A stretch of 64,000 nucleotides of DNA from Polaromonas sp. CG_9.7 (GTDB taxonomy: Bacteria > Pseudomonadota > Gammaproteobacteria > Burkholderiales > Burkholderiaceae_C): assembly GCF_015752205.1 (NCBI RefSeq), contig NZ_JADOVG010000002.1:1-64000 (forward strand). Reading direction: 5' to 3'. This document shows, piece after piece, positions 12,169 through 14,603 of the stretch (the stretch's first letter is position 1; every line of letters begins with the position of its first letter). Position numbers and translations under genes: made by a program. The notes beneath the pieces were generated by a model. It was given only the letters and a program-made list of their open reading frames with translations, did not search any database and had not been told where the DNA came from.

Positions 12169-14603
12169 TCGCGGTAAAGCTGGTCCCGGCCGCTCAAATA
12201 CGGCTTGGGCCAGTCCACCTGCCGGCTTTGCAGTTTGGCTGCTTCATGCAGCGTCCAGGCCGGATCGGCCAGGTGCGGGCGGGCAATGGCGCACAGGTCG
12301 GCGCGGCCGGCGGCAATGATGCTGTTGACCTGGTCGGCCTCGGAAATCGCGCCGACGGCCATTGTCTGGATGCCGACTTCGTTGCGGATGCGGTCGGCAA
12401 ACGGGGTCTGGTACATGCGTCCGTAAATCGGTTTGGCCGCGCGCGTCGTCTGGCCCGACGACACGTCGATGACATCGCAACCGGCCGCCTTGAACAGCCG
12501 GGCGATCTGCACGGCATCGTCGTCGGTGTTGCCGCCGGGCGCCCAGTCGTGGGCCGAGATGCGCACGCTCATCGGCAGGTGCGCAGGCCACACCGCCCGT
12601 ATCGCGCTGAACACTTCAAGCGGGTAGCGGCAGCGGTTTTCCAGGCTGCCGCCATAGTCGTCGCCGCGCTGGTTGGTCAGCGGCGTAATGAAGCTCGACA
12701 ACAGGTAGCCGTGGGCGCAGTGCAGTTCCAGCCAGTCGAAACCGGCTTCGACCGCCCGCTGTGCGGACTGCACAAACTTGTCCTTCAGGCGCGCCATGTC
12801 GGCGTGCGTCATGGCCTGCGGCATCTGGTTGGTCGGACCATAGGACACGGCGCTGGCGGCCAGCAGCGGCCAGTTGCCTTCAAGCACCGGTTCATCTGGT
12901 GATTCCCAGCCCACCTGCGTCGAACCCTTGGGGCCGCTGTGGCCCAGTTGCAGGCCGATCTTCGCGCCCGTGCCTGCAGCATGGACAAAATCGGCAATCC
13001 GCTTGAAGGCAACCATTTGCGCGTCATTCCACAAGCCGGTGCAGGCCGGCGTGATGCGGCCCTCGGGCTCGGGCGACGTCATTTCAACCAGTACCAGCGC
13101 CGCCCCGCCCAGCGCCCGCGCGCCCAGATGCACCAGGTGAAAGTCCTGCGGCACGCCATCGACCGCGCTGTACATGGCCATGGGGGAGACGACGATGCGG
13201 TTTTTCAGCGTCAGACCGCGCACTGTCAGCGGCAGCAACATCGGCGGGGGCGGAGTGGCCCTAACGCTCGCCACACTTCCCCGTTCGTCCTTAGCCTTTC
13301 GAGGGCCGCCATCCGACGAAGCCTTATTTTCCAAGACGGGGCCGCGGGACTGGCTTTGCCAGACCGCAGGCGCAGCGGCCCCCTCGGGGGGCAGCGAACC
13401 ACACGAAGTGGGAAGCGTGGGGGTCATTCCTGCCAGCCACTGCTCATAGTCCTGCAGCCAGGCGGCGTCGCGCACGCGCAGGTTTTCGTGGCTGATGCGC
13501 TGCGAGCGCGTCATCATTGAATAGAAGAACTGCTCGGCTTCCAGGCCGCTGTAGCGTTCGACGTTTTCAAACCATTCGGTCGAATTGCGAGCGGCGTTCT
13601 GGATTTTCAGCACCTCGATCGAGCGCAGCGCTTCGTACGCCTGCAGCGCGTCGTCAGTTTCGGGGTGCGCTGCAAAGCAGCGCGCCAGCTCGATGGCGTC
13701 TTCAAGCGCCAGCTTGGTGCCGCTGCCAATCGAAAAATGCGCGGTGTGCGCCGCGTCGCCCATCAGCACGATGGGCACACGTTTGCCGTGTAGGGTTTCA
13801 TGGTGCACCCAGCGCCCGCAGACCACGCGCGGAAAGCGGATCCAGATGGCCGAGCCGCGCACATGCGTGGCGTTGTTCATCAGCGGGTGGCCATTCAGGT
13901 ATTTGGCAAAAAGGCGTTCGCAAAACGCAATGCCGTCTTGCTGGCTCATCTGGTCCAGACCGTGTGCCTTCCAGACGGCTTCGGGCGTTTCGACGATGAA
14001 GGTCGAGGTGGTGGCGTCGAACTGGTAGGCATGGGCGGCAAACCAGCCGTGCTCGGTCTGCTCGAAAGCAAAGGTGAAAGCGTCAAACGTCTGCTTTGTG
14101 CCCAGCCAGACAAAGCGGCAGTTGCGCAATTCCACATCGGGCTGGAAGGTGTCGGCATAGCGGCTGCGGATGCGGCTGTTCAGGCCGTCGCAGGCAATGA
14201 CCAGGTCGGCGTTGTACTGCGCCGCGATTGCCTGGTCGTCGCTCACGTCGGTCTCGAACACCAGATCAACGCCGAGCGCCAGGCAACGGTCCTGCAGGAT
14301 GTTGAGCAGCCGCTTGCGGCCGATACCGCAAAAGCCGTGGCCGCCCGAGCGCACTGCGGTGCCCTTGAAGAACATCTCGACGTCGTCCCAGTGGTTGAAC
14401 GCGTCACCAATCAGTTTCGCACTGTCCGGGTCGGCGGACTGCAGATTGGCCAGCGTCTGGTCTGACAGCACCACGCCCCAGCCAAAGGTGTCGAAAGGGC
14501 GGTTGCGCTCAACCACCGTGACCTGGAGGGACGGGTCTTGCCGCTTCATCAGCAGGCTGAAATACAAACCGGCGGGACCGCCGCCCAGGCAAAGGATGTG
14601 CAT
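12108..14603 (-). CDS. Bifunctional FAD monooxygenase / Old Yellow Enzyme fusion (2-aminobenzoyl-CoA monooxygenase/reductase type)
   Basis: An 831-residue fusion. Residues 1 to about 390 form a class-A FAD hydroxylase (LGGGPAGLYFS dinucleotide fold at 6-16; GDAAHTAHFSIGSGTKLALEDA near 280). Residues from about 455 form an Old Yellow Enzyme barrel (RIVVSPMAMYSA, DWLELHCAHGYLLSSFITPLTNQR, then C-terminal flavin-phosphate region). This architecture is that of Azoarcus 2-aminobenzoyl-CoA monooxygenase/reductase, which hydroxylates and then reduces the ring of the CoA ester. Databases often name such proteins salicylyl-CoA 5-hydroxylase/oxidoreductase. The linker (about 394-454) is long, and part of it (SCGSLPPEGAAAPAVWQSQS) is the translation of a dispersed REP element. 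The C-terminus is also repeat-derived. It is probably the first gene of the operon. Confidence 0.9.
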   Translation of the reverse strand: MHILCLGGGPAGLYFSLLMKRQDPSLQVTVVERNRPFDTFGWGVVLSDQTLANLQSADPDSAKLIGDAFNHWDDVEMFFKGTAVRSGGHGFCGIGRKRLLNILQDRCLALGVDLVFETDVSDDQAIAAQYNADLVIACDGLNSRIRSRYADTFQPDVELRNCRFVWLGTKQTFDAFTFAFEQTEHGWFAAHAYQFDATTSTFIVETPEAVWKAHGLDQMSQQDGIAFCERLFAKYLNGHPLMNNATHVRGSAIWIRFPRVVCGRWVHHETLHGKRVPIVLMGDAAHTAHFSIGSGTKLALEDAIELARCFAAHPETDDALQAYEALRSIEVLKIQNAARNSTEWFENVERYSGLEAEQFFYSMMTRSQRISHENLRVRDAAWLQDYEQWLAGMTPTLPTSCGSLPPEGAAAPAVWQSQSRGPVLENKASSDGGPRKAKDERGSVASVRATPPPPMLLPLTVRGLTLKNRIVVSPMAMYSAVDGVPQDFHLVHLGARALGGAALVLVEMTSPEPEGRITPACTGLWNDAQMVAFKRIADFVHAAGTGAKIGLQLGHSGPKGSTQVGWESPDEPVLEGNWPLLAASAVSYGPTNQMPQAMTHADMARLKDKFVQSAQRAVEAGFDWLELHCAHGYLLSSFITPLTNQRGDDYGGSLENRCRYPLEVFSAIRAVWPAHLPMSVRISAHDWAPGGNTDDDAVQIARLFKAAGCDVIDVSSGQTTRAAKPIYGRMYQTPFADRIRNEVGIQTMAVGAISEADQVNSIIAAGRADLCAIARPHLADPAWTLHEAAKLQSRQVDWPKPYLSGRDQLYREIFKQKEALAQTGPAQAAIK
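13338..13423 (+). repeat. GC-rich REP-like element, copy A, inside the fusion gene
   Basis: Nearly identical to copies at 19779-19866 and 24302-24390: GGGGCCGCGGGACTGGCTTT, AGACCGCAGGCGCAGCGGCC, CCCTCGGGGGGCAGCG, then CACACGAAGTGG and GCGTGGGGG. Internal stems are GGCTTTGCC and GGCCCCCTCGGGGGGC. The two other copies are intergenic; this one is read in frame as an interdomain linker. A diverged inverted counterpart (ACACTTCCCC near 13270) suggests the whole inserted unit spans about 13256-13423. Confidence 0.9.

Follow-up and report, generated by a model that had tools for sequence, protein, structure and literature searches.

Here, we report that an enzyme linker in Polaromonas is built in part from a dispersed DNA repeat. 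We consider it highly probable that, in a predicted bifunctional salicylyl-CoA 5-hydroxylase/oxidoreductase, part of the interdomain linker is translated from a copy of a palindromic repeat of 86 bp that is dispersed in the genome, and that this repeat entered a gene that was already fused; by prediction, it is tolerated there as disordered spacer sequence and not kept for a special function. We read the data overall as recurrent, filtered and tolerated insertion. In such a scenario, repeats would land in coding sequence now and then; survivors would be those inserts that keep the frame, are free of stops, give rise to a soluble peptide and fall within linkers or loops; and surviving inserts would then drift, shrink, be swapped or be lost.

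The gene lies on the minus strand of the window, i.e., the whole 64,000-nucleotide stretch of DNA analysed here (Table 1). ORF 12108-14603 is stop-free over 831 codons and reads ...TPTLPTSCGSLPPEGAAAPAVWQSQSRGP... across the 86-bp element, in agreement with the claim of an earlier note on this DNA that the element is translated in frame between an FAD-hydroxylase and an Old Yellow Enzyme domain. The protein scores 1357 bits against the PRK08255/NF006101 profile, for which the curated cut-off is 1078, and matches profile positions 1-764 of 768, which places it in this family. The ORF is, therefore, predicted to encode a salicylyl-CoA 5-hydroxylase/oxidoreductase, which would act on the CoA ester; close relatives are annotated as anthraniloyl-CoA monooxygenase by one source. 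A first structure model, built from 18 close sequences, was poor (mean pLDDT 44.9) and was set aside. In the second model, built from 86 sequences (mean pLDDT 83.2, pTM 0.82), both domains match their known folds, and residues 396-448, within the linker, form the sole stretch of more than 12 residues with pLDDT <50.

Table 1. Features of the fusion gene and of the repeats in the window; positions count from the first letter of the window
Feature	Position	Strand	Remarks
Predicted bifunctional salicylyl-CoA 5-hydroxylase/oxidoreductase gene	12108..14603	minus	intact, 831 codons, NF006101
FAD hydroxylase part, residues 1-390	13434..14603	minus	Pfam FAD_binding_3, residues 3-328; second model mostly confident
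FAD-part turn, residues 266-277	13773..13808	minus	no insert here; repeat-filled in some relatives
Interdomain linker, residues 391-454 (64 residues)	13242..13433	minus	modelled disordered
Translated repeat copy, sense orientation, frame s2	13338..13423	minus	within linker
Degenerate remnant of second dispersed repeat, CTTCGACAGGCTCAGGACGAACGG type	13284..13302	minus	degenerate-pattern match
Old Yellow Enzyme part, residues 458-785	12249..13232	minus	Pfam Oxidored_FMN
Repeat copy outside any accepted coding frame	19779..19865	minus	begins 5 nt past same-strand long ORF end
Repeat copy outside any accepted coding frame	24302..24387	minus	begins 17 nt past same-strand long ORF end

The near-identity of the element to two other copies in the window, also described in the earlier note, was confirmed: the linker copy is identical to the copy at 24302 at 83/86 positions (97%, E 2e-36 within the window) and to that at 19779 at 80/87 positions (92%, one gap, E 2e-30 within the window). 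Two partial matches of 24 and 26 bp, at 58170-58193 and 52641-52666, are perhaps decayed copies. A direct-repeat search of a 501-bp region was empty, as expected for a single copy, and Rfam gave nothing at gathering score within the window. The whole genome has at least 59 matches to the element, the window's own linker copy counted, and this total is a lower bound because 40 of the 104 first-look candidates were scored. These 59 copies group into 41 loci, with tandem groups of 2-4. Near relatives are named Polaromonas, and of the 87 genomes of this genus 84 have matches to the element; the plasmid collection contained a single Variovorax record with a partial match. As RNA, the element folds into three hairpins. 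With long GC3-rich ORFs as a proxy for genes, not annotation, 23 of the 35 loci without shown coding begin -9 to +20 nt from an ORF end in the sense direction and 0/35 begin on the other side of such ORFs, and random positions meet the ORF-end placement in 41/1750 draws. With this orientation and position, the copies just past ORF ends resemble a 3'-end RNA element.

The repeat likely entered an already fused gene because the fused, repeat-less form occurs in close relatives as well as in outgroups. First, among 168 proteins (the window's own, 120 homologues among the matches listed and 47 genome loci), 88 have repeat-less linkers of 8-26 residues and are still fused. Second, Variovorax and Acidovorax loci have 7-8 residues between the linker anchors, most Hydrogenophaga loci have 14-16, and these loci are fused without the repeat. 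Third, proteins of another Burkholderiales clade, ∼50% identical, are fused without the repeat and have linkers of 20-53 residues among the 120 homologues listed. Several of the longer linkers in this clade are Ala-rich, up to 53 residues; linkers can also grow longer in the absence of repeats. Homologues that lack the repeat and share the same linker, named in the earlier note as counterevidence, were not seen when the 45 longest linker rows printed for this clade were inspected by eye; the repeat peptide occurred only in the window's own row. Thus, of the two histories put forward earlier, insertion into a pre-existing fusion is supported, and a role of the repeat in joining two genes is contradicted by the wide spread of repeat-less fused forms; on these sequences, we reject the repeat as the putative maker of the fusion. 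A variant of this idea, in which the repeat lay between two separate genes and read-through created the fusion, would fit the 23/35 loci without shown coding that begin right past ORF ends, where loss of a stop could read into the repeat, and the start of the sense copy about three codons past the conserved end of the hydroxylase. It is extremely improbable, since close relatives, other genera and the ∼50% identical clade all have the fused gene without the repeat, and since antisense copies lie at the same place.

The reading frame is also kept across the linker in relatives. All 103 gene loci that are readable across the linker, out of 104, are in frame and stop-free there, some genes being counted twice; the unreadable locus, L039, contains half the gene only. 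Six of the 47 translated loci have stops, which the aligner dropped; all are C-terminal to the linker, at the end of the match and past residue 760. An assembly or frameshift artefact has next to no probability: no points in its favour were found, homologous linkers lie on chromosome-size contigs (P0006, P0018), and P0001, a separate JGI record, carries a linker 97% identical to the window's. Because this separate record shares the linker, assembly error was rejected.

The linker is a recurrent site that holds the repeat in both orientations. At the peptide level, the 168 proteins comprise 50 with a sense copy, 28 with an antisense copy, 88 with none and 2 with a long linker without repeat; the weak repeat calls L069, L115 and L139 were afterwards set aside from these counts. 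At the DNA level, the repeat is present in 15 of 102 linkers other than the window's, in sense orientation in 7 and in antisense in 8; among these loci, L033 and L064 represent a single gene and L069 is weak. Hydrogenophaga linkers carry their own versions, L082 in sense and L087 and L099 in antisense orientation, and the L087 linker has from at least 41 to at least 78 matches per genome in six Hydrogenophaga genomes, these being lower bounds because 40 candidates were scored per genome. Two antisense copies lie in the L099 linker. In L091, from a Comamonadaceae MAG, the same linker reads PFDGLRTGS...LSQAQGER, which we take to resemble the other dispersed repeat. Sense and antisense linker copies are separate events. 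Most sense copies may trace to one insertion because many sense linkers have a common tail after the repeat. On a quick tree from domain columns alone, with near-copies removed (168 to 120 rows), 25 changes are needed between repeat, none and long without repeat, and 41 if sense and antisense are kept apart, with gain and loss indistinguishable and with recombination violating the tree model. The starred branches alone force 17 sense-label and 13 antisense-label changes, and, by label shuffles, proteins with a sense copy and those with none cluster on the tree, unlike those with an antisense copy.

Near-identical genes can differ in their linkers. The window's protein and P0007 share 96.3% identity in one domain and 97.5% in the other and have a sense and an antisense linker, respectively, as do P0015 and P0030 with domains 99.5% and 98.4% identical. 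P0018 (P. naphthalenivorans) has a sense linker and P0064 (P. hydrogenivorans) none, with domains 98.7% and 98.9% identical; L070 has an antisense linker and L075 none, with domains 98.7% and 97.0% identical. Along the L070/L075 alignment, the nucleotide sequences agree at 96-98% of positions up to the linker, at 89-94% over the ∼750 columns that begin with it, and at 96-97% thereafter. This mosaic suggests that alleles were likely exchanged there, in either direction. A second DNA pair tested, L078 and L080, had no local tract. Allelic exchange among strains is likely a further route by which inserts spread or disappear, and in this one pair of relatives the change of linker coincides with the recombination-like mosaic.

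These observations bear on the alternative that repeat-marked linkers are recombination joints, in which repeats shared between genomes and loci would raise exchange at the domain border and linkers together with adjoining domain parts would be swapped as cassettes. The L070/L075 mosaic, with its less similar tract from the linker on, speaks for this alternative. So does the kinship of the window's linker, which after that of the near-copy P0001 is closest to the P0008 linker (84% identical; domains 87%), whereas among the 14 relatives printed the nearer ones (domains 88-90%) have linkers 62-67% identical to the window's. However, the mosaic is a single pair in which the empty allele may be the import, and ordinary homologous recombination works without a repeat. 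Moreover, of the 465 pairs formed by 31 sense-linker proteins, just 4 are more similar in the linker than in the domains, and the correlation between linker and domain identity is 0.29. We, therefore, regard recombination joints as unlikely. It is possible, if on the doubtful side, that linkers of multidomain enzymes in Comamonadaceae more generally are standing landing pads for the genome's own palindromic repeats, which would be filled in a harmless frame and would then act as recombination borders at which linkers and whole domains are swapped between strains.

The reading frames of the inserts follow a pattern. Of 82 linker queries of ≥18 residues, out of the 168, 74 gave hits, 48 in frame s2, 24 in a1 and 2 in a2 (both Hydrogenophaga); for PurL, 81 queries of 108 gave 62 hits, 61 in a1 and 1 in a0. 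These counts are inflated by common descent, and the independent units are the six genes of the window's genome described below, which are few (three in s2, two in a1, one in a0). Nearly always, inserts use one of the three frames per orientation, and this indicates that the frames used nearly always encode a near-neutral peptide rich in Ala, Pro, Ser and Gly. A single Arg/Lys is present in the s2 peptide and likewise in the a1 peptide, against four to seven in the peptides of the remaining frames, one of which has five Cys. Because stops are scarce in all six frames (0-5 of 29 copies), frame choice is not explained by stops alone.

For the linker, pooled over 21 pairs from 7 loci, pN/pS is 0.826; the domains, pooled over 10 pairs from 5 of those loci, have a value of 0.217. 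The near-neutral value for the linker, together with the modelled disorder, favours a tolerated spacer over a specific gained function, and the repeat likely persists because nearly any spacer that keeps the frame would be tolerated in so flexible a joint. Pairs with the window have a linker dN/dS of 0.86 to 1.56; in 4 of the 21 pairs the ratio is <0.6 (0.49-0.59), which leaves room for weak constraint. These four pairs, the persistence of the sense linker across much divergence in Polaromonas and the frame unbroken in 103 loci would fit adaptive exaptation, in which the repeat peptide would tune the spacing or contact of the domains and be selected for it. Such tuning is distinctly improbable considering the pooled linker ratio of 0.83, linkers of 11, 64 and 72 residues (with no repeat, a sense or an antisense copy) in enzymes that are 96-99.5% identical elsewhere, and the filling of a PurL junction by other repeat families. 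The term "exapted" in the earlier note is, thus, apt for translation of the repeat as linker sequence but is not supported in the sense of a gained function, given near-neutral evolution and near-identical relatives with no repeat or a reversed one. Such near-identical enzymes, set apart mainly by a spacer whose DNA origin and orientation are known, offer a natural experiment in how linkers evolve.

The linker is not the only site filled in this protein family. At a site in the FAD part (residues ∼266-277), which in the second model is a turn between strands 266-271 and 274-280, 155 of the 168 proteins have 11 residues and 11 have >16. Seven of these 11 long inserts match the repeat, five of them Polaromonas-type in antisense and two, from Hydrogenophaga, in sense orientation. 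The DNA copy at this site in G019 is 94% identical to the window's 24302 copy. The two Hydrogenophaga loci with the sense-filled site are L099 and L137.

Elsewhere in the window's genome, coding copies were accepted only with homology on both sides, and 20 of 24 long frames over repeats were Pfam-scanned. ORF length alone was rejected as proof of coding, the genome being GC-rich. Copies upstream of the first domain (GluQRS, PhhA, GDPD, GlnE) and at an OlsE-like C terminus were not counted. By open frame and two-sided homology, the repeat is predicted to be read in frame in six genes, the fusion gene included, corresponding to 9/59 matches and 6/41 loci. The inserts lie between Salmonella PurL residues 598 and 605, between residues 190 and 194 of 2pw9 in FdhD (four matches), between residues 241 and 247 of 2pl5 in MetX and between residues 236 and 246 of 1psw in heptosyltransferase II, where the second homologous stretch is weak, and an RND adaptor has an in-frame copy with homology on either side. 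In FdhD (G000:C1:109360-109748, L166), ∼147 extra residues form one open frame between conserved stretches. Three of the six genes hold the repeat in sense and three in antisense orientation, without the bias seen past ORF ends. These cases indicate that non-coding repeats feed protein sequence to core enzymes (PurL, MetX, FdhD) outside Rickettsia.

The PurL junction has been filled by unrelated repeats. Among 108 PurL proteins (the genome's own and 107 of the 120 listed, 13 of ≤1250 residues being excluded and the own protein being present twice), the junction is short (≤9 residues) in 27 and holds the 86-bp repeat in 62. By eye, the remaining 19 comprise 16 of LTPTLSPEGRG...LPLGEGRGEG type, some of them degenerate, one VRPELVEG and two Ala/Ser-rich junctions. 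DNA of the LTPTLSPEGRG type, taken from G064, has 84 matches in G064 and 79 in G004, but G023 has 4 and the window's genome 3, counted on both strands of a palindromic repeat. The G064 PurL insert is identical to that of P0223 (Polaromonas sp. JS666). At the DNA level, purL is filled in two (G064, G004) and empty in seven of nine distinct other genomes. Every one of these nine genomes that was searched for the 86-bp repeat has it, and these nine genomes speak against a simple filling rule. A second PurL junction, before the glutaminase part, has similar inserts.

The window's linker also contains a remnant of a second dispersed repeat. At ≤2 mismatches, the CTTCGACAGGCTCAGGACGAACGG repeat occurs in 57 of the 87 genomes of the genus, with a control pattern giving 0 in each, and at the same threshold none was found in the window's genome. 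With a degenerate pattern and ≤1 mismatch, the sole match in the window's genome lies inside the linker. In G023 (G023:C9:3849043-3849066), as in the window's genome, the second repeat was seen only within the linker at the thresholds used. The linker copy may be the relic of a family that has otherwise vanished from these two genomes. As a dispersed family of the window's genome the second repeat was rejected, with none outside the linker at these thresholds.

Rickettsia palindromic elements (RPE) comprise several palindromic families that lie in frame in many protein genes, in a host that differs from Polaromonas in genus, GC content and life style. Judged by homology and open frames, the 86-bp element resembles RPE as a dispersed repeat that probably lies in frame inside several conserved proteins, here six genes. 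Intragenic in-frame REP/RPE repeats are, as a phenomenon, already known: the main text of PMC3733652 (Di Nocera et al. 2013) cites RPE and describes in-frame palindromic repeats in Rickettsia and other species, and its intragenic GTAG/CGTC REPs are tagged palindromes of 20-40 bp that lie mostly just 3' of genes, although in several species a number of them are part of the reading frames of real proteins; two Xanthomonas species have different REPs at about one recB site. The word Polaromonas is absent from that main text. Like these REPs, as described there, the window's element is palindromic, lies mostly just past genes and has some copies in frame; unlike them, it is 86 bp long with three RNA hairpins, and its window copy has no GTAG, CGTC or complements. 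The label "REP" given to it earlier, therefore, holds for a dispersed palindromic repeat and fails on size and tag.

The element is similar in size to BRE, described in Hot et al. 2011 (PMC3110155) as a dispersed and tandem betaproteobacterial element of ∼90 bp with some copies within coding sequences, and its 59 matches, 41 loci and tandem groups of 2-4 agree with that description. Copy numbers do not clearly agree: the same text gives 4 BRE in P. naphthalenivorans CJ2 and 29 in JS666, and the 86-bp element has at least 29 matches in G023, whose linker is that of P0018 (P. naphthalenivorans), and at least 44 in a genome titled JS666. Enterobacterial RU repeats, described in Delihas 2007 (PMC2759123), are small mobile elements that also occur within genes, where they leave the frame open and add to the protein sequence; they are like the window's element in this outcome, but element families and hosts differ. 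Among the titles and abstract beginnings searched, no account of repeats in these linkers was found, and the sole statement found on Polaromonas was that in the BRE paper (PMC3110155). Within the literature searched, and beyond the REPs in the main text of Di Nocera et al., what is new is that one linker has been used repeatedly and in either orientation, that a single PurL junction holds unrelated families, and that near-identical genes have swapped linkers. For annotation, the findings advise caution, since disordered "insertions" in Polaromonas proteins may be repeats.

Finally, the window's genome has one match to a Y1/RAYT-like transposase (G000:C6:97396-97725, L177). No copy of the 86-bp element was found in the 10 kb around it, and at least one such transposase match is present in 84 of the 87 genomes of the genus.
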